Below are positions 3,393 to 21,715 of a stretch of DNA of 64,000 nt, piece by piece (position 1 is the stretch's first letter; each line of letters opens with the position of its first letter). This stretch comes from an uncultured Bermanella sp. (GTDB lineage Bacteria > Pseudomonadota > Gammaproteobacteria > Pseudomonadales > Oceanobacteraceae). Made by a program: the position numbers and the translations under genes. The notes below the pieces were generated by a model. It ran no database searches and had not been told where the DNA came from. It saw only the letters and a program-made list of their open reading frames with translations. Location of the stretch: positions 103,056 to 167,055 of the forward strand of contig CAJXRF010000001.1 in the NCBI GenBank assembly GCA_913058575.1, in the 5' to 3' direction.

Positions 3393-4111
3393 AAACTTTA
3401 ACCATCATCCCTGCCAAAGGGGGTTCTACCCGTCTAGCGCGTAAGAATATTTTAACTATGCACGGAAGATCCTTAGTTCAGCACGCCTATGATGCAGCAC
3501 GAGAAAGCGGGGTTTGTGGTGACATAATGGTTTCAACTGAGGATGAAGCCATCGCCAAACATGCAATTGAAATAGGCGCTTGGTTACCTTTTCTGCGACC
3601 TTTTAATCTGGCTATTGATCCTGCTGGAGTAGAAACCGTCGCTTTATATTGCTTATCTGAATTAGAAAAAAAAGGTTATTCCTATCAAAAACTGATCATT
3701 CTACTGCCCACATGTCCTTTAAGAAACGCTCATGACATTAAAAATGCGGATAATATATTTAAAGAGAGTAAGGCTTCTCGTTTAATGAGTGTGTGTGAGT
3801 ACGATCACTCACCGTACTCTTCGTGGATTCATTCTAATAACAATATAGATAATAAACAAAACACTGAAATAAAGCCGCTTTTTGAACAACATTACCAGAA
3901 GAAGAGCCAGCAGCTGAAAAAAAGTTATCGCTGTAATGGGGCTATTCATATTCTTGATATAGAGGAGTTTAAATTAACAAAAAGCTATACAAAGCAACCT
4001 TTATTCTGTTACGAAATGCCTCGCGACCGCAGCGTTGACATAGACACGAAAGATGATTGGGTGTATGCAGAATGGTTGATGGCCAAGAATTTAACTGGCG
4101 AGTTAGCTTAG
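3389..4111 (+). CDS. CMP-nonulosonic acid cytidylyltransferase (NeuA/PseF/LegF family)
   Basis: 240 residues. N-terminal IIPAKGGSTRLARKNI is the CTP-binding signature (consensus IPARGGSKRIPxKN). VSTEDEAIAKHA and the PTCPLRNAHDI segment are typical of CMP-sugar synthetases. It activates the 9-carbon sugar with CTP for transfer by a Maf enzyme. The start overlaps the preceding synthase stop (ATGA), and the gene ends one base into the GTG start of pseG, so this is a tight operon. K-G-G-S-T-R replaces the usual R-G-G-S-K-R, a modest deviation. Whether it loads pseudaminic acid (PseF), the product of the neighbouring NeuB-like enzyme, or both is not decidable from sequence. Confidence 0.85.
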   Translation: MKTLTIIPAKGGSTRLARKNILTMHGRSLVQHAYDAARESGVCGDIMVSTEDEAIAKHAIEIGAWLPFLRPFNLAIDPAGVETVALYCLSELEKKGYSYQKLIILLPTCPLRNAHDIKNADNIFKESKASRLMSVCEYDHSPYSSWIHSNNNIDNKQNTEIKPLFEQHYQKKSQQLKKSYRCNGAIHILDIEEFKLTKSYTKQPLFCYEMPRDRSVDIDTKDDWVYAEWLMAKNLTGELA

Positions 4112-5145: not shown

Positions 5146-5261
5146 CAGGAATTTAAGCAGTTGGATATTACTTCTTTATGTCCATTTTTTTTAGGGGGCT
5201 GAAAATAATTTGAAAGCGAAATTCAATTTTTTGTAGGGAATATTGAACTAGTGAGGCTTAT

Positions 5262-5277
5262 TGGCTTAATAGTTGTT
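5262..5277 (+). promoter_or_regulatory. Possible weak sigma-54 promoter before the acetyltransferase
   Basis: TGGC at 5262-5265 followed at the right spacing by TTGT at 5273-5276. The -24 half matches the RpoN consensus, but the -12 half has TTGT in place of TTGC. It lies 29 bases before the ATG at 5306. Low confidence. Confidence 0.3.
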
Positions 5278-5305
5278 TGGTTAGACAAGGATTGGTACTA
5301 GACTT

Positions 5306-5761
5306 ATGACGGGTTCTCCGAGTTTTAAACTGCGAAAAGCAACCTTGCAAGACGTTGATATTACCTATCAGTGGCAAATACACCCTGCAGTTAGACGTTT
5401 CTCAAGAATTGAAACCCCTCCCGATTTTGAAGACCATCAAAATTGGTTTGTGCAGTCATTGAAAAATAGGTATCGAGAAATATGGATATTTGAATCTGCT
5501 GGTCAACCGATAGGGCAATTAAGGGTGGATATAGGAGATAAAAATGAAGTCTCTATTTTAATTTCGCCTGATGTTACAGGTAAAGGGTATGGAGACGTCG
5601 CCTTGAAATTAATTTGTGACTACTATAGGGATATTGATTTATGGGCCTACGTTAAAGTTGATAATATAGCTTCAATTAAACTATTTACTAAAAATAAATT
5701 TGTGCACCAGTATGGTAACTGGTACATGTTACGCTCAATTAAGTCAATGTATTCTGGTTGA
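5306..5761 (+). CDS. GNAT N-acetyltransferase, PseH-like
   Basis: 151 residues, a single GNAT domain: LRKATLQDVDITYQWQIHPAVRRFS at the start, then PIGQLRVDIG and the acetyl-CoA pyrophosphate loop ISPDVTGKGYGDVAL near residues 91-105. The first part resembles the acetyltransferase domain that in many species is fused to, or next to, PseG. In the pseudaminic acid pathway PseH acetylates the 4-amino group of UDP-4-amino-4,6-dideoxy-AltNAc, the step before PseG. It stands 160 bases after pseG and its 3' end overlaps the convergent pseI by 23 bases. Assignment to PseH rather than another sugar N-acetyltransferase rests on context. Confidence 0.72.
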   Translation: MTGSPSFKLRKATLQDVDITYQWQIHPAVRRFSRIETPPDFEDHQNWFVQSLKNRYREIWIFESAGQPIGQLRVDIGDKNEVSILISPDVTGKGYGDVALKLICDYYRDIDLWAYVKVDNIASIKLFTKNKFVHQYGNWYMLRSIKSMYSG

Positions 5762-6803
5762 ATAGCTCATGACTCAAGGGAGTTCCAGATTTAATATCCT
5801 GGTTTACCTTGCAACCAAGCACCTTTTCATACTCTATAGGTTGTAAACCATAGCTAGGTCTAATTATTCTTGTATTTTCTTTCGTTAACTCTTGATTTTT
5901 ACCTATATCCTTAACGATATAGATAGAACGACGAAATTGTGTATTTTCTTTTTCACATTCTTTTAGTCCGAAGTCATGGCTCCCCATACATTTAAAAGCA
6001 AGCTTTACATCGCGGCACAAATGAGCAAACTCTTCAGGCTGTAATGAAAATTCACTATCAGGTCCTCCATCATCCCTGTTAAGGGTAATGTGTTTTTCTA
6101 TAATGCTGGCACCCATGCTGGTAGCGCAAACCGAAGTTAGTGTTGTTAAGGTATGATCAGAAAGACCCACTGGGCAAGAAAAATTTCTTTTAAGAAGCTC
6201 TATCCCCTTTAAGTTTATGTCATCTATCGGAGTAGGGTAACCACTTACACAGTGCAATAAGCAAAATGGTGATTCACTGGTTTCTTGTATACTTTTGATG
6301 GCTAGTTTAATTTCTGAAAGATTTGCCATTCCGGTTGATAAAATAATAGGCTTTCCAGTCGATGCTACTTTCTTTATTAGTGGAATATCGGTTAGTTCAA
6401 AAGAGGCTATCTTATAGGCTGGTACGTTTAGGGTTTCTAAGAAATCGACAGAAGTCTCGTCAAATGGCGAGCTAAAAGCTAATAAGCCTAATTTATTGGC
6501 ATAGTTAAACAATTCTTTATGCCACTCCCAAGGTGTATGTGCCCATTCGTAGAGCTCATACAAAGACTTTCCTTTCCATAACCCATCTTTTATTTGAAAA
6601 TCAGAGGCCGTGGATGGAATGGTCATGGTATCTGCTGTGTAAGTTTGCAGTTTAATGGCATCCACGCCAGCTTTAGCCGCAGCTTCTACAAGGGCTAACG
6701 CTGTTTTTAGTGAGCCATTGTGATTACCGGACAACTCAGCAATAATAAAAGGAGCGCTAGTTGCGCTGATGGATCTAGTTCCTATTTTTAAGTAATTTGT
6801 CAT
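5739..6803 (-). CDS. pseI: PseI: pseudaminic acid synthase
   Basis: 354 residues from the ATG at 6803; a TTG five codons upstream (6818) is possible but starts poorly, and family members begin with the YLKIG...PFIIAELSGNHNG block. NeuB barrel motifs: AELSGNHNGSL, GVDAIKLQTYTADTMT, VPAYKIASFELTD, PIILSTGMAN, GLSDHTLT and ASIIEKHITLNRDDGGPDSEFSL, then a C-terminal SAF domain (RRSIYIVKDIGKNQELT). These are characteristic of PseI, which condenses PEP with 6-deoxy-AltdiNAc to pseudaminic acid. It is the last gene of the minus-strand operon after maf and the APS-kinase remnant and converges on the acetyltransferase. With PseG it shows that pseudaminic acid is made; PseB, PseC and a dedicated PseF are not seen here. 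Confidence 0.92.
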   Translation of the reverse strand: MTNYLKIGTRSISATSAPFIIAELSGNHNGSLKTALALVEAAAKAGVDAIKLQTYTADTMTIPSTASDFQIKDGLWKGKSLYELYEWAHTPWEWHKELFNYANKLGLLAFSSPFDETSVDFLETLNVPAYKIASFELTDIPLIKKVASTGKPIILSTGMANLSEIKLAIKSIQETSESPFCLLHCVSGYPTPIDDINLKGIELLKRNFSCPVGLSDHTLTTLTSVCATSMGASIIEKHITLNRDDGGPDSEFSLQPEEFAHLCRDVKLAFKCMGSHDFGLKECEKENTQFRRSIYIVKDIGKNQELTKENTRIIRPSYGLQPIEYEKVLGCKVNQDIKSGTPLSHELFNQNTLT

Positions 6804-6868
6804 TTTTATGATAGCCAATTTTTAGGATGTTTATTATAGATAATTGAGGACTTTATTGGTAAGTTTTC

Positions 6869-7637
6869 TTATAGCGATTCTGGGTAATATAGACTAAATA
6901 TATCTTCTAGGTGATCAATTACTTCTTCTTTCATTTTATTCGTTAGATAGTCAATGTTGTTCTTGTCTCTATTTTTGTCAATTTTATTCCCTACATATTT
7001 TGGGTATGACCCAGGATTTAAGGTTGTTGATAACTCGTTCTCTTCTATTTCAAAAAAATTGTATATTTTATTTAAAACTATTCTATTCGCAGAATCATCT
7101 GCACTCATGATTGAAGTGTTGACTATTAGATTAGGATTTTCGGGTTCTTGGTAGGGTGAGCTGATACCGGTGAAATTCTTAATCTTTCCTTGTTTAGCCA
7201 ATTTATATAGCCCTTTGGTGTCTCGATTCTCACAAGTCTTCAAATCACAATTACAAAAAATCTCTATAAATTTATTCTCTTTAATAATTTTTTTGGCCAT
7301 AATTCGATCGTCCTTGAATGGAGAGATTGCTGGGCAAATCACTATGAAACCTGCATCATTGAGTATGTTTGCCACCTCACTAATTCTACGGATATTCTCC
7401 TTTCGGTCATATTGGTTGAAGCCAAGATCTGAACTAAGGCCATGGCGGATGTTGTCTCCATCTAGAACATATGTATTTATGTTCATTAAATGAAGCTCTC
7501 TACTAATGATCTGGGCTATTGTAGATTTTCCAGACCCAGATAGGCCAGTTATCCAAATAGTGATCGATTTAAGGTTTTTTTTTCAATCTATCTTGCACTG
7601 TTACACTTTGCTCATGCCAAGTGATATTTTGATTCAT
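6869..7637 (-). pseudogene. APS kinase (CysC family) with a homopolymer frameshift
   Basis: The reading starts at the ATG at 7637, 4 bases after the maf stop, behind AGAGGA. It gives MNQNITWHEQSVTVQDRL, the usual CysC N terminus, then hits a stop just after a run of nine A (plus-strand T at 7575-7583). With eight A the frame would continue through LKSITIWITGLSGSGKST (Walker A, about 7523-7546), DGDNIRHGL and FTGISSPYQEPENPN, all typical of adenylylsulfate kinase. As it stands, the second frame has a stop immediately before the A-run and no start before the P-loop; the first ATG there is at 7486. Options: phase-off state, transcriptional slippage, true pseudogene, or assembly error. The rest of the frame is intact and unusually well conserved for a dead gene. 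An APS kinase without sulfurylase genes nearby suggests a role in filament-glycan sulfation or a related phosphorylation; this is speculative. Confidence 0.85.
7575..7583 (-). repeat. A9 homopolymer (coding strand) disrupting the APS kinase frame
   Basis: Nine T on the plus strand, A9 in the sense of the gene, flanked by TTG and CC. Removing one base restores a full-length APS kinase with its P-loop; the present length gives a stop two codons later. Confidence 0.85.
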
Positions 7638-7641
7638 ATCG

Positions 7642-9708
7642 CTAATCCTCTGGATCACTTGTAGATCTTAAAGTCCAAATATCTTCTTCTAGATTAAATT
7701 CTTTGAATACAATTTTTTGATAGTGTTTGTGCAGGCCTTTTAAGGTTTCAATAGTTTTTTTCCTCCAAGTAATGATCCATTGCTCCTTAAGCGACTTATC
7801 TTCAATTGCCAATGCGTGTGAATACCCAATATAAAACAAATGCCAGATTGATCCGCGTAAAAAGTAGTAAAATGGAGGGATTTCTGGTTTCATTTTATTT
7901 TCTAAAAAAGCCGATATAGAATTTATTATACTGGCAAGTGAATATAAATTTGGCTCAATTTTATTAAGTTCATTAATCATATATTGATTAAGTTCACCAA
8001 TATTGTGGTCCAAAACATCTAAACGTTTCTGAATTATATTTAAATCGATTTTGTTTTCATTTTTATTAAATTGAAGCGTTAAAAATTCACTTTTTAATGA
8101 TTTGTTGTTGTCTATAAATACGTTAGGCAGTTCATCATCGAATATCCATTTTGTGTTTTCGATCACAGCCCCATCAGAACAGTTATACACAGTAGCATGA
8201 GTTTTATATGGGTATATAACCGCCTCAGCAGTCCTTTTAGCAGTGTAAAGCATGGGTTTTGTTCTTATGGTTCCTCCTCTAACACAGTCAATCTCCATTT
8301 TTGCCACCCTTCCAACATCAGCATCCTCCAACATATCTTTATCGGTGGTATCGTAATAGACCGAGCCAGTAGCATGATGTTTTTCTAGGTCTCTATAACC
8401 AAAGTCCATGCCAAATAGGAATATGTTTTTGAAGCCCCAGTGAAGAATTAGCGCCAAGGCAGCATTGGTGCATGTTGGTGTACCCTTGTTCACTGAATTA
8501 TGTTTATCACCAAAAAGAAAACTTGTGACACTTTCTCCTTTAAAATAAATAGCTTTATTATTAAAGTAATTAAATACTCTAGGTGATAGTTGGGCTGGGC
8601 CTATCATGGGGATATCTTTAATCCATTCGGGATCATCAAGTTCGTCCAATGCCCTTAATGTAACTAGGTGAGACTCAAGTTCTAGGTGAATGTCTGGCTT
8701 TATATTGTTGTGGTAAAGTGTGTGTAATGATGTGCCACATGAAATAATCAAACATTTATCCTGAAGTTTCTTGATTTCTTCAATTTTTTCATCTAATGAA
8801 GGTCCTCCGCCAATTATAAAAACGGGCATATCAATTATGTTTGCTTGATTAGGTTTTATAACTGGGATATCTAGGTGAAGGTTGTGCAAACAGTTGTTTA
8901 GCTGGTTTATTTCATCGTCATAATATCCCCATACAGAAACAAATGCCTGAGTATCTTCATTCACCTTTTGAGTGAGCCTGTTATATATATCGAGATTTTT
9001 ATGGTTATTGAAAAAGGTCGTAAGTGGATAAAGCGGGCAGTGTGAGTTTAGGTATTTACAGACCATATTTTGCAATATGAATTCATTATCAATTGGCCCA
9101 ATGATGAAATGTATATTTCTTTCTTTATGATCTAAAAATGGTTTGCATGTCTTTTTCCAGTCAATGATGTAAAGAGATGCCGCGAATAATTCAGTGGCTG
9201 GTTCTACTATTAAGCAGTTAATGACTTTGTTTGTTTTTAGGAACTCTTCCACATGGTAGCCTGCGCCAACACCATTGAATATCATAATGGGATAAAAATC
9301 AGGGATGGAATAACCGGTGAAGTCCCCTTTTTTTAATGGAGATTGTTCTAAAATATCAGTACAGGATTGATGGAAATATCTTGGATAGCAATAACCATCA
9401 AACGGTGGATGGACGGTATTTAAATTATTACCTTTACCAAACCTGTCAGAAAAAGCACTTAGTTCTTCTCTTGCCTCAGCTAGCGGACGACTATTATAAA
9501 TTGTTTTTCCATCAAGCAATAAGTCCAGCTGCCCATTTTCAGTGATGAGGTTTAGTTTGTACCTATCCAATTTGAAGTTTACGAACCGTTCATGAATACC
9601 GGGGTGAAATTCTTTAAAGAATTCAAGGTTATTTTTTCGAAGAGAATCAATTTCATCAACTCTTTCTTGAATAGCTTTTTCTTTATGCATCACCTGTAGC
9701 GCTTCCAT
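7642..9708 (-). CDS. maf: Maf-family (DUF115/MptE-like) flagellin nonulosonic acid transferase
   Basis: 688 residues from the ATG at 9708, behind GGGA; a GTG at 9723 would add five residues. Central domain of the motility-associated factor family: MPVFIIGGGPSLDEKI near residues 295-309, ISCGTSLHTLYHNNIKPDIHLELE, PTCTNAALALI and IFLFGMDFGYRD. Maf enzymes transfer CMP-activated pseudaminic or legionaminic acid to Ser/Thr of flagellin in the cytoplasm before export. The gene is divergent from the flagellin gene and first in an operon with the APS kinase and pseI. A sigma-54 promoter 40-55 bases upstream puts it in the flagellar regulon. Only one Maf is in the window although two nonulosonate synthases are present. 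Confidence 0.9.
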   Translation of the reverse strand: MEALQVMHKEKAIQERVDEIDSLRKNNLEFFKEFHPGIHERFVNFKLDRYKLNLITENGQLDLLLDGKTIYNSRPLAEAREELSAFSDRFGKGNNLNTVHPPFDGYCYPRYFHQSCTDILEQSPLKKGDFTGYSIPDFYPIMIFNGVGAGYHVEEFLKTNKVINCLIVEPATELFAASLYIIDWKKTCKPFLDHKERNIHFIIGPIDNEFILQNMVCKYLNSHCPLYPLTTFFNNHKNLDIYNRLTQKVNEDTQAFVSVWGYYDDEINQLNNCLHNLHLDIPVIKPNQANIIDMPVFIIGGGPSLDEKIEEIKKLQDKCLIISCGTSLHTLYHNNIKPDIHLELESHLVTLRALDELDDPEWIKDIPMIGPAQLSPRVFNYFNNKAIYFKGESVTSFLFGDKHNSVNKGTPTCTNAALALILHWGFKNIFLFGMDFGYRDLEKHHATGSVYYDTTDKDMLEDADVGRVAKMEIDCVRGGTIRTKPMLYTAKRTAEAVIYPYKTHATVYNCSDGAVIENTKWIFDDELPNVFIDNNKSLKSEFLTLQFNKNENKIDLNIIQKRLDVLDHNIGELNQYMINELNKIEPNLYSLASIINSISAFLENKMKPEIPPFYYFLRGSIWHLFYIGYSHALAIEDKSLKEQWIITWRKKTIETLKGLHKHYQKIVFKEFNLEEDIWTLRSTSDPED

Positions 9709-9747
9709 TTTATATTCCCGCACGTTTGATTCTGTTTGATTATTATA

Positions 9748-10048: not shown

Positions 10049-13000
10049 ATGCCACAAATTATTAATACCAACATTGCCTCTTTAACGGCACAACGAAACT
10101 TAAACAAGTCTCAATCGGCTAATCAACAGGCTTTGGAGCGACTATCTTCCGGTCTGCGCATCAACAGCGCTAAGGATGATGCGGCAGGTTTGGCCATATC
10201 CACACGTTTTAACTCCCAAATTCGAGGTTTAAATGTAGCCATCCGTAACGCGGGTGATGGTATTTCTCTTGCGCAAACGGCGGAGGGTGCCCTAGGTACC
10301 ATGAATGACAACTTACAGCGGGTGCGTGAACTGGCAGTGCAATCTGCTAACGCCACTAACTCAGATGTGGATCGCGAGGCACTACAAGCGGAGGTGGATC
10401 AATTATTAGCTGAGATTACCCGTACTGCCGAAGAAACCGACTTTAACGGCCGTAAGCTACTTGATGGCTCGTTTAATGCCACTTTCCAAATAGGGGCTAA
10501 TGCAGGCCAGACAGTAGAAGTGTCCATTGCTGAATTAACAGCAGAAAAATTAGGGGCGGGTGAGGAAGCAGGTGTGTCTGCTTTAGGAACCGATTCGGCC
10601 ATAGCCAACGGTGACCTAGTTATCAATGGCACGGGCATCAGAGCTTCTTCAGCCACAGATGATACAGCATCGACCAACGGTGCAGATCGATCGGCTATTT
10701 CTAAAGCAGCTGCGATTAATGAATCAACCTCTGTTACTGGGGTGGCAGCTGCCATTAATACTAATCAAGCTGCGGGCACCGGAATGGTAGCTGCAGCCAC
10801 TGATGGCTCTGTGACGCTTAACGGAATTTCCATAGATATTGCAACCGGTGGGGTAGATACCGCTGCTGACCGTGCGTCGGTGATTCAGGCAATCAATGCA
10901 GCATCCGCTCAAACTGGGGTTGTCGCAACGGACACTGGACAGGACTCTTCTGGTATTACCCTAACGGCAGATGACGGCCGAAACATTGAATTAAGATTCG
11001 ATAAATTTGATTCCAGTGGTGACGCTTTTGCTAGTGGGGTTACAGCTGAGGCAACAGGACTATCAACGGGTGGTAGTGCAGGTGCCGGTACGGCCACTGC
11101 TGCCGTTATTAATGGTGCAGCCTCTGTTGCGGCATTTAATACCTTGAATGGCACTTTTTCCATAGAAATCGATGGCGAAGAAGCTATTTCAGTCACCTTA
11201 GCTGGTACAGGTGGTGCGTTGGCTGATGTGGTGGCTTCATTGCAGACGGCTATTGATACTGCAATTACTGACAATGGTTTAAACGTTGGTGTAACAGTGG
11301 CATCCAGCAACGGGGTGCTGAGTATTACATCGAATTCCACTGGCACAGACTCTTCACTGAAAATTACTACGGTGACCAGTTCTGCGGTGGCGGGTGATTT
11401 AAGTTTTGCTGAGATGTTTGGTTTAACTCAGGCGGTCTCGGTGGGTCTTGCGGAGTCAGGATCAGGCTCCATTTATTTGGAAGATACTGGAACAGATGGA
11501 GTAGACAACACCAACGGGGTTGCTTATGGCTCTGTTGGCTTATTAACCAATGCTGGAGCCGTGGCGACCACAGGCAGTACAGTGACAACAGGTATTGCCA
11601 CCTTTAGTATTGAAGTTGATGGTGGTAATGCCGTTGCGGTGTCGGTGGCGGGTGAACTTGCTCCGTTTGTTGTGACTACCGAGGCTACCAGAACCGCCTC
11701 ACTAACAGCGTATACAGCCAAAGTTGAAGCGGCTATTAACAATGCCCTGTCTGCGGATAGCCAAGCAGGCACGGTCACTGTGGGCTACGATGATGGGTAT
11801 CGCTTAGTTATTACCTCCTCAGAAGAAGGCTCAGACTCAAGCATTAAAATTTCCGCCACCGGTACCAATGCCGAATCGGCTTTGGGCATCACGGCGAATA
11901 CACTAGGTGCATTCAGAAACGATGGCTATGAAGGGGCGGCTGGGGTTGAAAATTCGTCTGCAGTTTATGAAGGCTCTATAACCCTTCGCTCAGTAAATGG
12001 TGATGATGTTGTCGTTACCAGTGGCAGTGGTTCATTAAGCAGTACCGGACTTGAATCTGGTACGTTCACTGCGGGCCAGGCGTTTGCTACTAATCAGTCT
12101 CAGTCGGTATCGGGTGCAATTGCTACATCTGGCGAGGTAGTGGGTCGTAAGACGTCATCAGGTGGCTTAGACGATGCCATGATAACGGCGTTAACCACCG
12201 TAACCACGGGCTTTACCATATCTGTTGATGGTGGTAATGACGTTACTGTTGCCTATACCCAAACCGCGGCATCGGCCACAGAGTTAGATAGCTTAGCTGC
12301 CTTCTTAACAGGTCTTGAAGCTGAAATTAACTCTGCATTGGTGTCCGATGGTCAGACAGGTTCTGTGTCGCTATCTACCAACTCAGATAACCAATTGGTG
12401 TTGTCTTCCAATAGTAAGGGCACATCGTCCTCTGTTGAGCTAAGCGGCATCAGTACAACGGCAACGGCTCCGGCATCAGCCATTGATATTCTGGGTTTGA
12501 GAAATAACCTAGATGGGTTTGGTTCATCGGGCTTGACGGATACTCAAGGCACGATAACCGGCATAGGTACTGTATTAGCCGAAAACTCTGGTGGTGTAGG
12601 TGCAACGTATAGTACTGCATTGTTAGCCGCGGCAGGTGTTATTGCTGCAGAAACATTGAGGGTGAGTATTGATGGAGGTAAAACCATCGATGTGGATATC
12701 GCTTTGACTACAGTGGGTGACGCTACAGCTGCGCTTGCTTATGTCGAAAAAGCCATTAACGATGCATTAACGGCTGAGGGGCAGGCTGGCCAAGTTAGTT
12801 TAGCAACGAATGTAGATGGCTATGTCACTATTAGTTCAGACAAGGAGGGAGCGGGTTCCAGTGTTGAGGTTGTGACTTCTAACGTTGGTACTGCAAACAG
12901 CTTTAGTCGTCTCGCAGGCATCATCGATTATCACAAAGGATCCACAGCCGTTAGCACAGTGACAGCGCCAGATGGGCTGGACTCAGGTGACTTACTCATT

Positions 13001-13969
13001 AACGGAGTTGCGATTTCGTCTGCTAAGGCATCGGATGATGCCGCTTCTAATACCGTTGCGCTATCGAGCAGTAAACAGGCTAGTGGTATTGCCACAGCGG
13101 CGGCCATTAATGCGGTGTCGGATAATACCGGAGTCGTGGCAACGGTGAATGCTACCCAGTTAACTGGGGGGGCTCAAACGGCCACCTTAACCACTGATAC
13201 ACCTCAACAAGGGTCAATTTTCATAAATGGTTTTGAAACCTCGACCCTAACCACTAATGGTGCCAATGGCGGGGCAGATGATCGATCCGCAGCCATATCG
13301 GCCATCAATGCCATAACCGGTCAAACGGGTGTGAGTGCCGTAGATGATGGTGAAGGGATTACCTTGCAGGCCGCCGATGGTCGTAACATTAGTGTGGTTA
13401 TCAACAGTAATGATAAAGCGGCATCTGAATCCAGTGGCTCTTTTGATTCCTTAACCGGTTCCTCCATAGGGTTGAATGTTGCTGAGGCAGATATTAGCGG
13501 TGGCGCCACTTTCGCCGCTACGGCAGAGACAGCCTATAGTACTGTGACACTGGATGGTCCTGGTAAAATTGACATACAAACCGGTGCAAATGGTGCTGCT
13601 GCTTTAGAGGCTCTTGGTTTCAGAGCAGGAGAGTACGGCTCCACTGAGGCTGGTACGCGAATCTCTGACTTGGATATCACTACGGTTGCAGGGGCAGAGG
13701 AAGCGATAAAGGCTCTTGATAATGCTATCGGTTCGGTAGCAAGTCAAAGGGCGACACTGGGTGCGGTTCAAAACCGTCTGGACAGTACCGTGAATAACTT
13801 GTCGGTAACCTCCAATAACCTGTCGGCAGCGAACTCGCGAATTCAGGATGCGGATTTCGCGGCAGAAACGGCAGAGCTCTCTAGAACCCAGGTCTTGCAA
13901 CAAGCGGGTATCTCGATTTTGGCGCAAGCCAATGCGGGACCTCAGCAAGTGTTGTCACTACTCGGATAA
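10049..13969 (+). CDS. fliC: Giant flagellin (filament subunit)
   Basis: 1306 residues, against about 270-550 for most flagellins. Conserved D0/D1 ends: N-terminal [42 protein letters not shown] and [18 protein letters not shown]-terminal [24 protein letters not shown] and [26 protein letters not shown]...VLSLLG. Between about residues 180 and 1200 lies an expanded variable region rich in Ala, Gly, Ser, Thr and Asp. It includes GDLVINGxxI-type pieces resembling the flagellin IN motif and four modules beginning xFSIxVDGG-like near residues 368, 517, 720 and 868. Ser/Thr richness fits heavy O-glycosylation by the neighbouring Maf. Expressed from a sigma-28 promoter; Shine-Dalgarno AAAGGAG at 10036-10042. 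No frameshift seen; both ends are intact, so the size is real. Confidence 0.96.
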
Positions 13970-13978
13970 GCTAGATAA

Positions 13979-14001
13979 CAGAGCCTCAGGATGAGGCTCT
14001 G
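13979..14001 (+). terminator. Hairpin after the flagellin gene
   Basis: A 10-bp perfect stem, CAGAGCCTCA and TGAGGCTCTG, with loop GGA, starts 9 bases after the flagellin stop. Only a short T5 follows 9 bases later, so it may be a leaky terminator or a 3' stabiliser that separates high flagellin expression from flaG. Confidence 0.65.
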
Positions 14002-14043
14002 AGTCTACGAAGTTTTTAGATAATAGCTTAGAAGAGGTGACAT

Positions 14044-14430
14044 ATGAGTGATATGAAAGCAGGTGTAGGTAGAGGTGATCCTTTACCTCCTAATCCGCTA
14101 ACCACTGCGCCTCAAGTCAAAAAGGGCGTGCAAGTAGAAGAAGCAGATGGCAGCGGCAATAAATTGCCGGATGAAAGTGTCGTTAAAATGGTCGAGCAAG
14201 TGGATGATGAGTCCGTCGAAAATGCTGTATCAAAGTTAAATGAGTATGTGCAAAACACATCTAGGACACTTAACTTTCAGGTGGACGATGATAGCGGTAA
14301 GACAGTTATTAAAGTCTACGATCGGGAGTCAGATCAGCTGATCAGGCAGATCCCAAACGAGTTGGTACTGGAGCTGGCCCGTAGACTAAACGAGGAGGAA
14401 CCATCATTATTATTTGAAGCGCAGGTTTAA
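14044..14430 (+). CDS. flaG: FlaG family protein
   Basis: 128 residues. The C-terminal half is the FlaG domain: LNEYVQNTSRTLNFQVDDDSGKTVIKVYDRESDQLIRQIPNELVLELARRL, with the hallmark I-R-Q-I-P segment. The N-terminal 50 residues are polar and probably disordered. FlaG proteins sit between flagellin and fliD in polar-flagellum loci, and loss often lengthens or alters filaments; the mechanism is not settled. The start ATG at 14044 follows AGAGGTGA. It lies 74 bases after flagellin, past a hairpin, so it is probably transcribed by read-through, and is followed by a good terminator. Confidence 0.9.
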   Translation: MSDMKAGVGRGDPLPPNPLTTAPQVKKGVQVEEADGSGNKLPDESVVKMVEQVDDESVENAVSKLNEYVQNTSRTLNFQVDDDSGKTVIKVYDRESDQLIRQIPNELVLELARRLNEEEPSLLFEAQV

Positions 14431-14527
14431 AGGCGAGGAGTATCCTACTTGTATTGTATAGGTGGGGCTGGAACGATTAATAACAGTTACTCCTTATGCT
14501 TGTTTAGTCTATTGCTAAATTAAAGCA

Positions 14528-14566
14528 AACCTCATTACGGCCGTTAAAGGAAGTAATGGGGTTTTT
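14528..14566 (+). terminator. Rho-independent terminator after flaG
   Basis: An 11-bp stem, AACCTCATTAC with GTAATGGGGTT (one T-G pair), a 14-base loop, and a run of T directly after the stem. It lies about 100 bases after the flaG stop and before the fliD promoter. Confidence 0.7.
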
Positions 14567-14610
14567 GTGTTTGTAGAGCTAAAATTCGTAATTCTAAAGT
14601 GTTGGCATTA

Positions 14611-14626
14611 AGGCATGTTAATTGCG
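14611..14626 (+). promoter_or_regulatory. Sigma-54 promoter of fliD
   Basis: AGGCATGTTAATTGCG: GG at 14612-14613 and GC at 14624-14625 with 10 bases between, and TTGC at -12. Predicted start is near 14637, about 30 bases before the fliD ATG; GGCGGAGG lies between. Confidence 0.75.
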
Positions 14627-14667
14627 TTTAACCCTAACTTGTAAAACTTTAATAGGCGGAGGCATTT

Positions 14668-17600
14668 ATGGCCAGTATTCAAACATTAGGACTCGGGTCG
14701 AATGTCTTAACCAGCGAACTGGTTGATCAAATTATTGCGGCTGATCGTGCTGGAACTGAAAGTTTAATCAATTCACGCAAAGAAATTACTGAAGCTAAGG
14801 TTTCGGCCTTTGGTGAGATCACCAGTAAATTATCAACTTTTCAATCTGCCATGGAAGACTTAACGGACAACAATGTTATTAGCTCTACTCTATCTAGTTC
14901 TAGCGATGAGACTATTTTAACCGCATCTACTACTAGCTCAGCAGTACCTGGCACCTACTCGGTAGAAGTGCAGGCCATGGCCCAAGCCCATTCTTTGGCC
15001 AGTGCCAGCTTTGCCGATTCCACCACTCAAGTGACTGCCTTGGGCGGTGTATTGGAATTTAAATTTGGCACTACCACCTACACTGGCGGCGGGGCGTACG
15101 ATACGTTTACTGAAAATGCAGATAAAGCAGGTAACACTGTCACCATAGGAGCAAATTCATCTCTTTCAGATGTACGTGATGCCATTAATACCGCCGACTT
15201 TGGAGTGACGGCGGCTATCGTATTTGATGGCTCAGGATACAAATTAAGTTTGGTTAGTGATGATTCTGGGTTAGATAACAGCATGGAAATAACTGCGCGG
15301 GATTCATCAGGCGGAACCCTCTCAAGTGATGGACTAGAAGGCTTGGCTTACAGTGCATCTCAATCAACAGCTTCTAATTTAAGTGAATCCCAAACGGCTC
15401 AAGATGCGGTATTAACCTTTAATGGTTTGTCGGTGACTCGCGAATCTAATGCCATCACAGACCTGATCACAGGTACTACTTTAAATTTACAATCAGCCAA
15501 CGTAGGGCAAACGGTTACCGTAACAGTGGGTGCTGATCTGACCGCTTTTTCTGAAAAGATTGATGAAATGGTAGCTGCATACAACGACTTAAAACAGAGT
15601 GTCGATTTTTATACCGATTACGATGCGACAAAGCAGGAAGCCGGCATATTAACTGGTGATATTACCATTCGCACCTTGATGGTAGGAGTGAATAATTTGA
15701 TGGCCAGTTCGGTAGCGGGCATTACGGGTAAAGAGTTTGGGTCATTTGCCGAATTAGGCATAGAACGAGATCAAAACAGTGACTTTGCTTTGAAATTTAA
15801 TGTCACGGATTTTTTATCGGCCATGGAGGAAGACCGAGATACTGTTATAGATATATTTGGAGTCAGTGGTACCACTAGTGATTCTTTAATTCAGTTCAGT
15901 AATGATTCTATTAATACTAAGGCTGGTGATTACGCTGTGAATATAACCACAGTAGCCTCTAAGGGCACCTTTGAAGGGGCTACTATCTCAGCTCTAGATT
16001 TTTCCTCTGCAGTAACCATTGATAATGCCAATGATGATTACACCATCGACGTAGATGGTACTTTAGGCACATTTAGCCTCACCCAGGGCAGTTACACCAC
16101 TGGAGTGTCCTTAGCGTCAGAGATTCAGTCTCAGATTAATTCTACCTCTAGCCTATCTAGTGCAGGAGCCAAGGTGACTGTTAGCTATGACTCAACTAAT
16201 AAGCGTTTTGATATTTCGTCTAACAAGTATGGCTCCAGTTCAGAAGTGTCGTTTACTTCTGTGGACACCAATTCAGCAAATTCCCTTGGATTAAATGAAT
16301 TGGCTGTCGGCACGTATGACGGATCTAATTTAACCGCGTTAAGTTCAGCTTACCTTGTGGGATTAGGCGCTTCGACTACCCCATCCTCCACCTCGGTAGC
16401 TTCTGACGATGGCATTAATTTTAATTCAATAAATGCAACTTTTTCGCTGGATATCGATGGTGGAGGTGCAGTTGCGGTGACTGTTAATGAAGATGCCGCC
16501 AGCAGTGATTTAAATGGCGACAGTGTGTTTGGTGATCGATTGGATATTCTGCAAGCTATACAAAATGGCATTGATGCCACTGCATTGAGTGGCGACGTCA
16601 CAGCGTCTTTTGATAATAACAATAAATTGTTATTTACCACCACAGCAGTGGGAGCTGCTAAATCCATTGAAATTACTGCTGTGGGAGCAACGGCTTCAGA
16701 TACTCTACTGGGGCTGGATGCCACTGATGGACTACAGACCAATGGTCGAGATGCTGGTTTGACGGTGGCCGCAAGCGATATTTCTTTTGATTTAACTCTG
16801 GATGGTATTACTACCTCCACCGCCATAGAAATGACCGCAGGTACTTATACTACAGGGAATGACATTGCCACGGCTTTAGAAACCGATATCAATACTTATT
16901 TAGCAGCTGATGCAAACTTTGCCGGCTTGGTAGTAGGGGCCTCAAGCGATGTGGGCTCACGGGATATTTCCGCCAACATTGATTTTTCTACTATCAACAG
17001 CGGGTTTACATTAAACGTAAATGGGACCTCAAATGAGGTGGTGGTGAATACAGATTCAGGCGATAACATAGTCGATATTCAAACAGCTCTGGATGCATCA
17101 TTTGGCGGAGGTGTGGTCACGGCTTCGTTATCAGGTACTGGGTTATTATTTACCACGGATACCACAGGGCACACTGAGTACCTACAGGTTTCCAGTGATG
17201 GTCGTGGCGCACAAACCACCGCTGCATCGGTTATTGCGACAGGCATAGACTTTAGTGGAGCTAATAATGCCACTTTTGATGTCACCGTAGATGGTGTCAC
17301 TATGAGCGTGGATGTCAATACAGATGCCAGTGCAGGAGATGGTGACGATACTATTTCAGCGATTCAGGCGGCTTTGGATACTGCTTTGGTTGCCTCGGGT
17401 CAGTTTCAGGCCGGTGATGTGCTGGCGAAACGAGACAGTGGTAATCAATTAATTTTCGGAACAGCGGCAAAAAATGGTGTTAAAACCGCTAATACTTTTG
17501 GTTCCAGTTCTTCAATTCAAATATCCAATTTGGGTGGAACAACCGTAGCGAATTTAGGGCTGGTGGCTGAAACTCAGACCAATGGCTACGATGCTTTTGG

Positions 17601-18618
17601 GATTGGCGATGACGTAGAGTTTGGTTATGACATCACAGCCAACGTGGACTATGTAAATGATTCAGCTAATGGTACCGGCCAACTGGAAATTACCATTGGC
17701 GGGCAAGCAACTACCCTGGTTTTTAGTAATGTGAGTAGCTCGGCTACTTCCTCTTTGGGAATCCATATTCCCGATGGTTCAGAGACGACCGCTCAAACGG
17801 GAAGTGATGCTGCAGGTACTATTAATGGCGTGACAGCTAATGGTAGTGGACAATATCTTACTGCACAAAATGGTAATACAGATGCTTCCAATGGCTATTT
17901 TATTGCCAATCAGTCAGCCATTATTGGTGCATCGGTGGTGGTAGATGGGACTAACGAAAGTTTTACCATGAGTCTTAACGGTGTAGAAGCTGAAGTTACC
18001 GTAGCTCAGGGAACCTATGCTACCGGTGAGGCATTAGCTACGGCCATAGAAACCGCAGTGAATGGTACCAGTGCTTTTTCCAGTTTAAGTTATGGTGTAA
18101 AAGCCGAATATACCAGTGATGTAGCTTCTTCTCTGTACGGTAAAATTGGTTTGATCTCAAATATTACAGGGAATAATTCTAGTGTCACTATGAGTACTGT
18201 GTCTTCGGCGGCACAAACGGCTTATGGTTTTAAAGTGGGTCAAGCAGATGGTGAAGTAGGCAGCGATGCGATGGGGTCGGTGGACAATGCTAGCGGTATT
18301 CGTATCAAGGTGATTGGAGGCAGTACTGGAGATCGGGGAACAGTGAACTATATCTCAGGGTTAGCCGATCAAATTAACGATCTGTTGGATCTATACTTGA
18401 ACAGCAACAGTGGGTCATTAGGTTTACAGGTGGCGGGTCTTAATGATGATCTAGATGAATTGACTCAAGAGCAAACTGATTTAGATGCTCGAATGGTTGC
18501 ACAGGAAGCGTTATTACGGGCAAAATTTTTGGCTGCAGATAGCATTATAGCGAGTATTAAAAGTACAGAGACATTTTTAACTCAGCAATTCGAGGCATTT
18601 GCTGCAGCTGGGAAGTAA
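14668..18618 (+). CDS. fliD: Giant FliD (filament cap / hook-associated protein 2)
   Basis: 1316 residues, about two to three times the usual 440-700. FliD_N at residues 1-110: LGLGSNVLTSELVDQIIAAD, and PGTYSVEVQAMAQAHSLAS near residues 95-115. FliD_C motifs are split: LITGTTLNLQSA, KIDEMVAAYNDLKQSVDFYTDYD and ILTGDITIRTL near residues 268-340, and the terminal coiled coil NYISGLADQINDLLDLYLNSN...LLRAKFLAADSIIASIKSTETFLTQQFEA. The extra mass, about residues 410-1230, is inserted before the last part of FliD_C. It contains six beta modules with xFxxxVDG starts near residues 456, 589, 705, 778, 867 and 1097, like those in the flagellin. FliD forms the cap that folds incoming flagellin. It has its own sigma-54 promoter. 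Confidence 0.95.
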   Translation: MASIQTLGLGSNVLTSELVDQIIAADRAGTESLINSRKEITEAKVSAFGEITSKLSTFQSAMEDLTDNNVISSTLSSSSDETILTASTTSSAVPGTYSVEVQAMAQAHSLASASFADSTTQVTALGGVLEFKFGTTTYTGGGAYDTFTENADKAGNTVTIGANSSLSDVRDAINTADFGVTAAIVFDGSGYKLSLVSDDSGLDNSMEITARDSSGGTLSSDGLEGLAYSASQSTASNLSESQTAQDAVLTFNGLSVTRESNAITDLITGTTLNLQSANVGQTVTVTVGADLTAFSEKIDEMVAAYNDLKQSVDFYTDYDATKQEAGILTGDITIRTLMVGVNNLMASSVAGITGKEFGSFAELGIERDQNSDFALKFNVTDFLSAMEEDRDTVIDIFGVSGTTSDSLIQFSNDSINTKAGDYAVNITTVASKGTFEGATISALDFSSAVTIDNANDDYTIDVDGTLGTFSLTQGSYTTGVSLASEIQSQINSTSSLSSAGAKVTVSYDSTNKRFDISSNKYGSSSEVSFTSVDTNSANSLGLNELAVGTYDGSNLTALSSAYLVGLGASTTPSSTSVASDDGINFNSINATFSLDIDGGGAVAVTVNEDAASSDLNGDSVFGDRLDILQAIQNGIDATALSGDVTASFDNNNKLLFTTTAVGAAKSIEITAVGATASDTLLGLDATDGLQTNGRDAGLTVAASDISFDLTLDGITTSTAIEMTAGTYTTGNDIATALETDINTYLAADANFAGLVVGASSDVGSRDISANIDFSTINSGFTLNVNGTSNEVVVNTDSGDNIVDIQTALDASFGGGVVTASLSGTGLLFTTDTTGHTEYLQVSSDGRGAQTTAASVIATGIDFSGANNATFDVTVDGVTMSVDVNTDASAGDGDDTISAIQAALDTALVASGQFQAGDVLAKRDSGNQLIFGTAAKNGVKTANTFGSSSSIQISNLGGTTVANLGLVAETQTNGYDAFGIGDDVEFGYDITANVDYVNDSANGTGQLEITIGGQATTLVFSNVSSSATSSLGIHIPDGSETTAQTGSDAAGTINGVTANGSGQYLTAQNGNTDASNGYFIANQSAIIGASVVVDGTNESFTMSLNGVEAEVTVAQGTYATGEALATAIETAVNGTSAFSSLSYGVKAEYTSDVASSLYGKIGLISNITGNNSSVTMSTVSSAAQTAYGFKVGQADGEVGSDAMGSVDNASGIRIKVIGGSTGDRGTVNYISGLADQINDLLDLYLNSNSGSLGLQVAGLNDDLDELTQEQTDLDARMVAQEALLRAKFLAADSIIASIKSTETFLTQQFEAFAAAGK

Positions 18619-18931: not shown

Positions 18932-21010
18932 TTAATTATCCTGAGTATTCAGTTTTAGATTAGGCTTGTACTGGCAATAAAACTGGAACATATTAGCAAA
19001 AGTATGAGGGTAATGTTCTTCAAATTCATCCCATTGCTTTAGATTAAGCATATCCGCCTTACTTCCATGAAAAGATAGAAAATCTTTTTTGGTCTTAAGG
19101 CTTAAATTACTAAAGCCTAGCCAAGTTAAATTAAATTCTTGACATAGCTGTTTAATTGTTAGCGGGGTATAGTGCTTTTCATATTCATGAAATAACATAT
19201 CTACCGTGCCGCTCATACTGTAAAAATCGTCTGACTGAGTGATGCCGATTTTATTATCGATTAAGCTGCTTTGCATAATAGCTTGACGAATTACTTGCAC
19301 TCTGTGCCTGTCTAGTTGATCTCTATCTTGTTTAAATACATTGCGAACTTGAGTCACTGGCTCTCGTGTTCTGCGGCTATAAAGTGAGATCTTAATTAAT
19401 CCGTTAGGCTTAAGGTTATTTAGTAAATTATGCAATGCTTTTTTATAGTGTCTTATATGGTGTAGAACTCCCGAGCATTCAATTATATTGAATTTTTCAT
19501 GTAATATAGGAAGTTTGGTAATGTCGGCCAATTTAAATTCAATATTTTCAATACCAAACTCTGTGGCCATGTGCTTGGCATAGGCAAGACTGTTTTGACT
19601 GATATCAATGCCTAGTACCTGTACACCATGGAAGTACTTAGCAACATTAAGGGCATGCCTGCCAGTACCACACCCTGCAATGAGTATTCTTAAATTATCA
19701 TCAAATAAATGTTGCGGAAAATTAACGTGTTTATACTCATGCCGTAGAGCAATTCCGTAGTTGATGTTCTTTTTGTAATCTAGTGTTCGCCACCTAGGAT
19801 AAGGGAATTGTTCATATTGAGACTTTACTTTGTTTTCTTTGCAGTTAGGTATAGTTGTTATTTTTTCAAATTTATATTGACCGAGCTTACATATTTCATC
19901 ATGCCACATTCTTATTTGATAAGTCTCTTCGGGCCAGTCCTTAGTTGACCAGTTCATAAGTTTTGGAAATTGTTCAAGGTGTAGCCATGATCTGTACATG
20001 CTCATTAGAAGTAAGGCACCAGATATATCTAGTGCAGTGCACCCAAACTGAGTTAATGACTGATTAATAACATTATCCAACACATTTACCATTGAAGTTT
20101 CTGCTTCTGTTTCAGGTAAAATATATTCATTACGCTGCCCATATTGTGATATAGCTTGACTTAAAGGTATGTAGTTTTTACTTAACTGCCCCTGTTGTGT
20201 ACTGAAAGTTAATAGTTCATGGCGCAAACTCATTATCAGCTTTTCCAGCATTTCACTTTTAATGAGGGTGAGACGAAGAGCAGATAAAAATAAAGGGCAT
20301 TTAGCTATGATATCGAAATGGGCTGCGCTGCCTTTCTGATTTAGTTCAAATTTATACTCAAGTAAACTGCATACTAATGTTCCTAATTGTTCAAGGTTAA
20401 CCTTGTCCCATTGCATATAACTTAATAAATCTTGTTCAAGTTCTGGATCATAGTAGTCTGCTTGAATCTGGCTAGCTAAATTCACTACCTGCGAGCGAAT
20501 ATGTAAATCTTGCCCCTGTGTTTTTGCTAATTCTCGATATTGTTGAAATGCCTCAACAATTCTTCCATTTTGGGCAAGAGTATAGGCTAAGCTTACTTCA
20601 GCACGAGTTTCTTTCGGGGCATGTTTTATTGCTTTTTGAAATGCGGATTGTGCATTATTAAATTCCTGTTGTGCCAAAGAGATATGTCCGGCACTGTACC
20701 AGTAACCTCCATTTTCAGGCGATTCGATTAATGCACGATTTATGGCCTCTTGTGCTTCAAAGTAATGACCGTTCTCAAGTTCTATTCGAGCTAATAAATT
20801 TAAACTATCACCATTATCTGGGTCTAGCTCAAGCGCTTCACGTATATCTAATTTAGCTTGGGCAAGAAGGCCCCTGCTTAACCTGGGGTCATGATTGTCA
20901 GATTGGGTTAAATGAAAACCATCATAGGCCTTTTTTCGATAAAACTTAATATTCTGACTTTTGCTAAGAGTAGTGGATTTCTTTTGCTTCTTGACTTGTA
21001 CCTGAGCCAT
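18932..21010 (-). CDS. TPR-repeat protein with SAM-dependent methyltransferase domain
   Basis: 692 residues. N-terminal tetratricopeptide repeats at about residues 50-165 (e.g. AIKHAPKETRAEVSLAYTLA). A helical middle region follows, then QYEQFPYPRW (398-407), a segment typical of TPR-methyltransferases. The class I methyltransferase core has motif I ILIAGCGTGR (442-451), LGIDIS, a likely motif IV IIECSGVLHHIRHYKKAL, and ISLYSRRTRE. The ATG is preceded by AGGGAGA. Its promoter region has a sigma-54 site (21062-21077), and the gene sits between fliD and fliS, so it is likely flagellar. Possible substrates are flagellin Lys residues or a filament glycan; neither is shown by sequence. No FliB-like sequence was recognised. 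Confidence 0.85.
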   Translation of the reverse strand: MAQVQVKKQKKSTTLSKSQNIKFYRKKAYDGFHLTQSDNHDPRLSRGLLAQAKLDIREALELDPDNGDSLNLLARIELENGHYFEAQEAINRALIESPENGGYWYSAGHISLAQQEFNNAQSAFQKAIKHAPKETRAEVSLAYTLAQNGRIVEAFQQYRELAKTQGQDLHIRSQVVNLASQIQADYYDPELEQDLLSYMQWDKVNLEQLGTLVCSLLEYKFELNQKGSAAHFDIIAKCPLFLSALRLTLIKSEMLEKLIMSLRHELLTFSTQQGQLSKNYIPLSQAISQYGQRNEYILPETEAETSMVNVLDNVINQSLTQFGCTALDISGALLLMSMYRSWLHLEQFPKLMNWSTKDWPEETYQIRMWHDEICKLGQYKFEKITTIPNCKENKVKSQYEQFPYPRWRTLDYKKNINYGIALRHEYKHVNFPQHLFDDNLRILIAGCGTGRHALNVAKYFHGVQVLGIDISQNSLAYAKHMATEFGIENIEFKLADITKLPILHEKFNIIECSGVLHHIRHYKKALHNLLNNLKPNGLIKISLYSRRTREPVTQVRNVFKQDRDQLDRHRVQVIRQAIMQSSLIDNKIGITQSDDFYSMSGTVDMLFHEYEKHYTPLTIKQLCQEFNLTWLGFSNLSLKTKKDFLSFHGSKADMLNLKQWDEFEEHYPHTFANMFQFYCQYKPNLKLNTQDN

Positions 21011-21271: not shown

Positions 21272-21715
21272 ATGTACTCAAAAGGTGCCAAGGGATACAG
21301 TCAAGTTAGTTTGCAAACTGAAGTCATGGAAGCTGACCCTCATAAGCTTATTCAGCTACTTTTAGAAGGATCGTTAACAAGATTGTCCATGGCAAGAAGT
21401 TTTATTGATTCTGGAGATATTGAAAAGAAAAATGAAAAAATTGGTCAAGTTATTGAAATACTGAGCAGTCTTCAAGAAAATTTAGATCACGATCGTGGTG
21501 GAGAAATTAGTGTTAATCTGGAGCGCCTTTATGATTATATGACCCGTCGCCTATTTGATGCAAACAGATTGAATGATAGTGAGATAGTGACAGAGGTTAT
21601 GGGGCTGCTGCTGGAAATTAAGGCGGGCTGGGAAGGTATTCGAGACAGTTATGAGGACTTAAAAAGCCAGGGAAAGGTAGCCGCTTCTGGCATGAAAAGC
21701 TCTTTATCGGTTTAA
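21272..21715 (+). CDS. fliS: FliS flagellin export chaperone
   Basis: 147 residues, all-helical pattern of FliS: YSQVSLQTEVMEADPHKLIQLLLEGSLTRLSMA at the start, then EILSSLQENLDHDRGGEISVNLERLYDYMTRRL. FliS binds the C-terminal D0 helix of flagellin and keeps it unfolded for export through FlhA. AGGAG at 21259-21263 precedes the ATG. Its FliA promoter, matching that of flagellin, synchronises chaperone and client. The last residues (SQGKVAASGMKSSLSV) are polar and probably flexible. Confidence 0.93.
   Translation: MYSKGAKGYSQVSLQTEVMEADPHKLIQLLLEGSLTRLSMARSFIDSGDIEKKNEKIGQVIEILSSLQENLDHDRGGEISVNLERLYDYMTRRLFDANRLNDSEIVTEVMGLLLEIKAGWEGIRDSYEDLKSQGKVAASGMKSSLSV

Follow-up and report, generated by a model that had tools for sequence, protein, structure and literature searches.

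Results

The flagellin and filament cap genes

A 64,000-nucleotide stretch of DNA from an uncultured Bermanella sp. (assembly GCA_913058575.1, contig CAJXRF010000001.1, positions 103,056 to 167,055), here called the window, encodes a giant flagellin, FliC, and a giant filament cap protein, FliD. The genome is 5.7 Mb with a completeness of 99.7%. The fliC gene (10049..13969, + strand) specifies 1306 residues and matches PF00669 (E 2.8e-45) and PF00700 (E 5e-27) at its two ends, the N- and C-terminal D0/D1 regions by which a flagellin is recognised. It is followed on the same strand by flaG (14044..14430; PF03646, E 2.6e-20) and fliD (14668..18618), whose product of 1316 residues matches PF02465 (E 1.3e-20) and PF07195 (E 8.4e-34), both above the cut-off. 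One gene on the opposite strand separates fliD from fliS, which encodes the flagellin export chaperone (21272..21715, +; TIGR00208, E 1.4e-26), ie the order is fliC, flaG, fliD, opposite-strand gene, fliS, with fliC and fliS close to fliD. The open reading frames and Pfam matches bear out the sizes, approximately two to three times normal, and the coordinates given for both proteins in an earlier reading made without database searches (the sequence-only reading). The pairing of the two proteins is one piece of a larger enlargement which includes the hook and the hook-filament junction. A second, small flagellin-like frame of 268 residues occurs at G000:C27:14551-14925, and similar small frames are present in many relatives.

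The sequence-only reading missed that the flagellin contains the tandem DE regions already in print, at residues 142-422 and approximately 866-1202 (internal repeat E 5e-29); the names DE and DX for regions of the protein follow PMC6248924. The first copy, DE1 (residues 142-361, approximate limits; 10472..11131, +), is supported by an hhalign self-match of 866-1202 to 142-422 (E 4.9e-29), and DE2 (968-1202, approximate limits; 12950..13654, +) by a match of 176-422 to 968-1202 (E 1e-27). Between these limits lie four modules, all on the + strand: C1 (362-447; 11132..11389), C2 (510-616; 11576..11896), C3 (717-818; 12197..12502) and C4 (868-951; 12650..12901). Each was found with profile hidden Markov models (HMMs) of single FliD modules. 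C1 was matched by the M7 and M1 models (independent E-values, i-E, 3e-7 and 8e-7), and C2, C3 and C4 by the M2 model (1e-8, 7e-5 and 8e-3). The HMM matches, at approximately 362-447, 508-616, 717-818 and 871-951, agree with the four units which the sequence-only reading had placed at about 368, 517, 720 and 868.

The excess length of FliD is an insert of residues 398-1215 (15859..18312, +) within the D1 helix bundle, a D4-type position. The insert is 817-825 residues long in 30 of the 30 FliDs of the family. Residues 268-433 of the FliD structure 9m68_A aligned with the AlphaFold model of the window FliD between model residues 5 and 995 (Z 12.0, root mean square deviation (rmsd) 2.4, 156 residues), and since the D1 parts of the model, 1-112 and 931-995, are each too short to accommodate 156 residues, the alignment must bridge the insert. 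The PF07195 match is also split into two stretches. The insert contains M1 (449-543; 16012..16296), which from the class survey described below is the sole unit of FliDs of about 680 residues, M2 (576-690; 16393..16737), M3, a short unit (697-760; 16756..16947), M4 (766-857; 16963..17238), M5 (857-966; 17236..17565), M6 (985-1080; 17620..17907) and M7 (1086-1192; 17923..18243), all on the + strand. M1-M5 and M7 were recognised by their HMMs, with further support from the model for M2, M4, M5 and M7, and correspond to the six units first proposed. M6 is an additional, different domain with no flagellin match at i-E < 0.01. M7 is close to M1 (430-544 against 1073-1190, E 2e-16). Among 30 relatives, conservation of the insert equals that of the N-terminal core, with identities of 0.589 and 0.581 respectively (r 0.94).

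Homology and predicted fold of the shared module

Seven single-module HMMs were made with FliD module sequences from 32 relatives. Their best i-E at each flagellin module site of the window ranged from 1e-8 to 8e-3, and no match at i-E < 0.01 was obtained with reversed sequences of 189 flagellins and 163 FliDs, the best value being 0.039. Profile-profile comparison, with 31 flagellin and 32 FliD sequences as input, aligned flagellin residues 718-1107 with FliD 454-829 at a probability of 94.7 (E 5.7e-8). Weaker further matches had probabilities of 78, 55 and 27. Reversed controls between the two proteins gave at most 0.2. FliD against its own reversal reached 47.5, however, and probabilities under about 55 are therefore not to be relied on. 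The kinship of the modules, proposed from recurring motifs alone, thus survives alignment by profile.

In the AlphaFold models nine of the ten modules of the sequence-only reading (FliD M1, M2, M4, M5 and M7; flagellin C1-C4) have the order β-β-α-β-β-β, with a small extra strand in places, as in C4; in M3 the last strands are missing. This order recurs in the modelled second half of DE1. Mean pLDDT (predicted local distance difference test) was 81 for FliD and 62 for the flagellin. The predictions give the two sets of modules one secondary-structure order. Insert parts of the FliD model matched Salmonella FliD D2-D3 with Z 8.6 (rmsd 4.6, 182 aligned). Vibrio flagellin outer domains (Z 7.9) and Campylobacter jejuni FlgK (Z 5.9) were also matched, both under the Z of 8 below which VIA-align matches were not counted as proof of kinship. 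Phage tail sheath proteins (9b42, 8fvg, 8env) matched parts of the model as highly as flagellar outer domains did (Z 9.2-9.9, 111-113 residues), in an alignment lying between model residues 144 and 763, ie window FliD 429-1048. By sequence, no solved homologue of the insert was found at E 0.1. A phmmer search of the Protein Data Bank with FliD residues 383-600 returned no FliD and only chance matches to Protein L; the match obtained with full-length FliD extends to residue 549.

PF07196 (Flagellin_IN) matches 15 of 17 flagellin inserts (best 3.9e-13), that of the window not being among them, and four of 17 FliD inserts weakly (best E 0.023), again without a match in the window's insert. In the whole window FliD it scores E 4e-5, the best stretch being the D2 region at 152-199. 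No adhesin family appeared among the weak Pfam matches of the 17 FliD inserts. On the predicted structures we provisionally call the shared module a D2/IN-type outer domain. FliD-module HMMs matched just eight of the 189 flagellins, five of them in the window's family, and therefore the shared module is not general to giant flagellins.

Giant hook and junction proteins

The flg genes lie approximately 13-26 kb upstream of fliC, outside the window. There flgE, identified with Pfam (G000:C1:87241-90951; L270:2242-5952), encodes a giant hook protein of 1220 residues and flgK (G000:C1:96181-99189; L270:11182-14190) a giant junction protein of 998 residues. FlgL is of normal size, at 412 residues. 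So are the distal rod proteins, which from gene order we take to be a FlgF of 249 and a FlgG of 261 residues; an open reading frame of 262 residues occupies the place of FlgD.

When the whole genome was searched with the module profile at E ≤ 1e-3, nine of the modules of FliC and FliD themselves were recovered, as they must be by construction, together with a single other protein, FlgE (open frame of 1236 residues, E 1.1e-6). Profile-profile comparison of FlgE with FliD gave a probability of 94.9 (E 4.6e-8), with reversed controls of 0.3 or less, and at each of the 11 family loci read FlgE was matched by the module HMM (best i-E 3e-10 to 3e-6). The module type is thus clearly present in FlgE. 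FlgK against FlgE reached 97.5, largely from their common core; HMM matches in FlgK were confined to two genomes, G042 and G004. By this weaker evidence FlgK would carry at least one module. Reversed controls for FlgE and FlgK were 2.3 or less.

The large sizes are maintained among relatives. FlgE has 1193-1258 residues in 28 of the 29 family genomes with a match, and 951 in the remaining one, G027. It has 1437-1593 in six genomes of family f6, 1238 in a seventh (G212, which is outside the genomes with a listed FliD) and 1194 in G042. FlgK has 992-1002 residues in 11 family genomes. In G090, contigs C16, C129 and C135 hold ten FlgE_D2 matches, several in frames of about 990-1017 residues, besides an ordinary FlgE frame of 657 residues.

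Distribution of the FliD modules

A sample of the order, together with relatives from the window's family, comprised 159 genomes with FliD, of which 146 had a complete flagellin in the locus and 13 did not. The length of the FliD insert in these genomes rises in steps: approximately zero (80 genomes), 67 residues (1), 104-121 (10), 179-196 (24), 289 (2), 322 (1), 443-448 (4), 667 (1) and 809-824 (36). All 24 inserts of the class of about 180 residues hold one M1-type unit, for which M7 was the best HMM in one case, and four also hold a piece of M6. The inserts of 289 and 322 residues contain M1 twice, those of about 445 residues M1, M3, M6 and M7 or near equivalents, that of 667 residues M1-M6, and those of about 815 residues M1-M7. 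The class of 104-121 residues was not recognised by the module HMMs. Inserts longer than 250 residues are found, in 43 of 44 instances, in one clade (support 0.835) in which families f1 and f6 are sisters with f44 next; the other, of 322 residues, is in G081. FliDs of more than 1000 residues were seen only in families f1, f6 and f10. Of 369 genomes sampled across the class, 60 matched the FliD insert profile at E ≤ 1e-10. With the window set aside, these were frames of 661-739 residues and one of 865, matched almost only at the M1 end, and a cap with one module is therefore common in the Gammaproteobacteria.

Size relations between the four proteins

FlgE and FlgK sizes were taken as stop-to-stop open frames, the best-scoring in each genome, except that in G100 the FlgE frame nearer fliD was used. 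The FlgE of G047, G071 and G161 is based on partial domain matches. Truncated, fragmentary or unlisted proteins were left out, namely the FlgE of G027, G044, G045 and G143 and the FlgK of G044, G071, G143 and G193, as were genomes in which the match was too weak. FlgE sizes were thus available for 142 of the 159 genomes and all four proteins for 113. G028, in which FliD is split into two frames, was left out of the size table. The FliD frame is in pieces at L091 (G028) and also at L132 and L136 (Thalassolituus bin78), by assembly error or as a pseudogene.

Within the window's family FliD is fixed in length, at 1312-1324 residues (n=30, mean 1317.4, standard deviation (SD) 2.2; SD of the insert 1.8), while its flagellins range from 732 to 1361 residues (n=29). 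Nearly all of the flagellin variation is in the middle part (60-688 residues, SD 184); the flanking DE parts have SDs of 10-13 and D0/D1 is fixed. The sequence-only reading expected FliD length to follow that of the flagellin in genomes with giant flagellins. Over the order sample the two lengths are indeed correlated before correction (raw rank correlation 0.73, n=146), and 41 of the 42 genomes with FliD of at least 700 residues and a known flagellin have a flagellin of at least 700, with one below. Little of this remains in independent contrasts. On the FliD-core tree the correlation fell to 0.23-0.24 (sign-flip p.004-.016), in smaller common sets to 0.19-0.22 (p about.05-.07) and without the window's family to 0.18 (p.14); within the family r was 0.02 (n=28). 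Over all sets, scales and trees p was.004-.07 with the family and.01-.14 without it. Giant flagellins also occur with normal caps, since four of the 40 genomes with flagellins of at least 800 residues have FliD below 600. In G083 the filament protein alone is giant, a flagellin of 1247 residues (L221:3139-6882) being accompanied by FliD of 497, FlgE of 476 and FlgK of 668. In G120 a flagellin open frame of 1705 residues (L251:2316-7433), with three FliD-type module matches, lies beside a FliD of 557. In family f44 four of the five genomes have FliD of 937-956 residues with flagellins of 703, 719, 1192 and 1197, and the fifth has FliD of 480 and a flagellin of 318. A cap size which tracks flagellin size is therefore rejected within the family, and is weak elsewhere after phylogenetic correction.

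The strongest relation was that of hook to junction. Contrasts over the 113 genomes were 0.77 for FlgE-FlgK, 0.50 for FliD-FlgE, 0.38 for FliC-FlgE, 0.37 for FliC-FlgK, 0.32 for FliD-FlgK and 0.22 for FliC-FliD; without the three strongest contrasts the respective values were 0.65, 0.33, 0.27, 0.26, 0.14 and 0.07. The pattern was similar on the flagellin tree (FlgE-FlgK 0.76-0.77 on both trees). When FliD was regressed on FliC and FlgE together (131 genomes), beta was 0.01 for FliC (p.65) and 0.31 for FlgE (p.008). Median FlgE rises with FliD class, from 445 (FliD below 540) through 642 (540-700) and 683 (700-1000) to 1218 (at least 1000). These values support a cap size which follows the hook more than the filament, but that support comes from a few large events.

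Relation of the fliC and fliD modules

In a module tree (FastTree, 99 columns), the deep nodes of which are poorly supported, three of the four window flagellin modules pair with their counterparts in the sister genome G006 (support 0.95-0.995), and each of the four is separated from every FliD module by at least 1.5 substitutions per site. In FliD, M2, M4 and M5 cluster (0.90); the grouping of M1 with M7 is weak (0.18). The module exchange suggested in the sequence-only reading has therefore left no recent sign, and the tree lends no support to recent exchange, or to recent gene conversion, involving the window's fliC and fliD genes. Flagellin modules of G022/G032 and G026/G022 adjoin FliD groups (support 0.75 and 0.85) and, with the deep nodes weak, older exchange is possible.

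Neighbouring genes

The gene between fliD and fliS (18932-21010, - strand) encodes a 692-residue protein with a TPR-like N-terminus and a methyltransferase-like C-terminus. Genes of the pseudaminic acid pathway sit between flgL and fliC (window 3389-9723 and L270:15542-17667). PseB and PseC, upstream of the window, exceed their NCBIfam cut-offs, as does PseI within it; PseF, PseG and PseH, also in the window, are below theirs, and a 693-residue protein in the same group is weakly related to PseD. Glycosylation of the giant flagellin is probable. A chemoreceptor of 1263 residues (window 37308-41099), with multiple PAS domains and a C-terminal half resembling that of Aer2, is encoded downstream of a cheA-like gene.

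Discussion

Our preferred explanation, to which we give slightly better than an even chance as a whole, is that a set of exposed flagellar axial proteins (FlgE, FlgK, FliC and FliD) was enlarged by the stepwise addition of outer-domain modules. In FliC, FliD and FlgE the added mass is largely made up of β-β-α-β-β-β modules, probably of the D2/D3 ('Flagellin IN') kind. These would have been added stepwise, almost wholly within one clade, and would act as spacer beads which widen and stiffen the hook, junction and filament. In the cap they may build an outer structure of D4 type, at a distance from the cavity where flagellin folds. The size of the cap insert would be fixed by packing of the modules on one another, or against the hook-junction end, which is likewise fixed and on which the cap is first seated, and the diameter of the growing filament would not set it. 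Flagellin would be inserted through its D0-D1 contacts and its outer part would therefore be free to vary. Of these steps the packing of cap modules on the junction is the least certain. In C. jejuni, FliD D4 is reported to lie far from the cap cavity and near FlgL at the junction (PMC12221982), and the hook to be stiffened by extra FlgE domains (PMC9254593). As the cap insert, hook and junction are fixed and the filament shell varies, thickening by spacer modules is the most economical reading. A more specific version is that hook, junction and cap form a length-locked giant set of one module type, in which the array of seven D4 units is a skirt fitted to the wide hook-junction end, so that the partner in size of the cap is the hook and junction and the outer part of flagellin is free. 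That version is tentative, and we think it more probably wrong than right.

Several observations weigh against the enlargement by spacer modules. The flagellin model is poor (pLDDT 62), and with a predicted template modelling score (pTM) of 0.44 for FliD the relative placing of its modules is uncertain. Since FliD-type modules were detected in no more than 8 of 189 flagellins, the majority of giant flagellins in the family must be built from something else or from modules diverged too far to be seen. FlgK against FliD reached only 62.9 and FlgE against FliC a weak 23.5, and the window's own FlgK has no module HMM match among the matches listed. The FliD-FlgE beta falls from 0.31 to 0.11 without the five largest FliD contrasts, and within the window's family the sizes of FliC, FliD and FlgE are uncorrelated for every pair. 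Sizes are also decoupled in G047 (FlgE 1163, FlgK 1152, flagellin 907, FliD 454), and four f44 genomes combine FliD of about 940 residues with FlgE of about 688.

The sequence-only reading held that the cap, perhaps by exchanging modules with flagellin, became larger to match a wider filament in its leg and plate domains. The homology of the FliC and FliD modules, the raw correlation of 0.73 and the near-constant company of large FliDs and large flagellins (41 of 42) are what it predicts, and the flagellin modules which stand beside FliD groups in the tree would fit an old exchange. We now regard it as distinctly unlikely, as there is no correlation within the family, G083 and G120 combine giant flagellins with normal FliD, the flagellin term vanishes (beta 0.01) once FlgE is included, and the window's flagellin modules do not group with its own FliD. 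Alternatively, the FliD insert may be a tip adhesin or surface sensor, eg for oil droplets or particles, its length fixed by a ligand, and the enlargement of hook and filament a separate matter. FliD does sit at the filament tip, a virulence role has been proposed for FliD D4/D5 of Helicobacter pylori (PMC8306008), and the sampled relatives include hydrocarbon-using genera. However, the insert is no more variable than the core, the weak Pfam matches of the 17 inserts include no adhesin family, and the presence of one module type in hook and filament suits a building block better than a ligand-binding head; this too is unlikely.

Another alternative is a neutral ratchet. Tandem modules duplicate easily and would be tolerated where secretion is strong, with purifying selection then freezing FliD, FlgE and FlgK without any matching of sizes. 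The stepwise ladder, including its M1 + M1 states, and the decoupled sizes in G047, f44 and G083 are consistent with such a process. The FlgE-FlgK contrasts on both trees would be hard to obtain by independent drift, though, and the FliD insert is locked to an SD of 1.8 residues despite a mean identity of 59%, which makes the ratchet decidedly improbable. Finally, similarity between the modules could be compositional, as might be expected of secreted β proteins rich in Ser, Thr, Ala and Gly whose identity to M1 is only 16-29%, and the self-reversal value of FliD speaks in favour of this. Such an artefact is rejected on the reversed controls, which were 0.3 or less for the FliC, FliD and FlgE pairs and gave no match at i-E < 0.01. 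Both models also have the same secondary-structure order, and genome-wide the profile finds FlgE alone beyond FliC and FliD. The probability that homology is absent is very small.

Giant flagellins and FliD D4 domains are both known; what is new is the coordinated giant set. The window's flagellin belongs to the group of giant flagellins described in the Oceanospirillales by Thomson et al. in 2018 (PMC6248924), whose subject was Bermanella marisrubri. At 1306 residues it exceeds their limit of 1000, and it has two DE copies around an insert, as judged by the internal self-match (E 4.9e-29). In that paper, DE homologues outside flagellins are not reported, the DX insert is called probably de novo, and the main text does not mention FliD or FlgK. 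The window differs in that the middle of its flagellin (362-951) is matched by FliD module HMMs. That the insert lacks homologues beyond flagellins is part of the paper's description of the group, and the difference leaves the window's flagellin a member. The FliDs of C. jejuni (D4 inserted in the D1 helix bundle; PMC7316729, PMC12221982) and H. pylori (D4/D5 with D2/D3-like folds; PMC8306008) are similar in kind. As described there, they have one or two extra domains, in contrast to the six modules and M6, about 820 residues and length-locked, of the window FliD. Similarly, outer domains D3/D4 lengthen the FlgE of both species and the C. jejuni hook is reported to be stiffer (PMC9254593); the enlarged families studied here differ in having FlgE of 1193-1593 residues, with FliD-like modules, alongside giant FlgK, FliD and FliC. 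PF07196 describes a flagellar outer-domain motif of the same sort, although the window's own inserts are unmatched by it. Among the titles and abstract openings listed from the open-licence literature, none reports a giant FliD/FlgE/FlgK set, though such a report may still exist.

The window's giant flagellin has a DX insert with kin in the cap protein, whereas in its relatives that insert was described as probably de novo (PMC6248924). The question shifts from why the flagellin is giant to why one marine clade enlarged its hook, junction, filament and cap, yet not FlgL. The clade and its relatives also offer a natural series of 0, 1, 2, 4, 6 and 7 extra cap units with which the function of FliD D4 may be probed, and which bears on what determines the thickness and stiffness of hook and filament.

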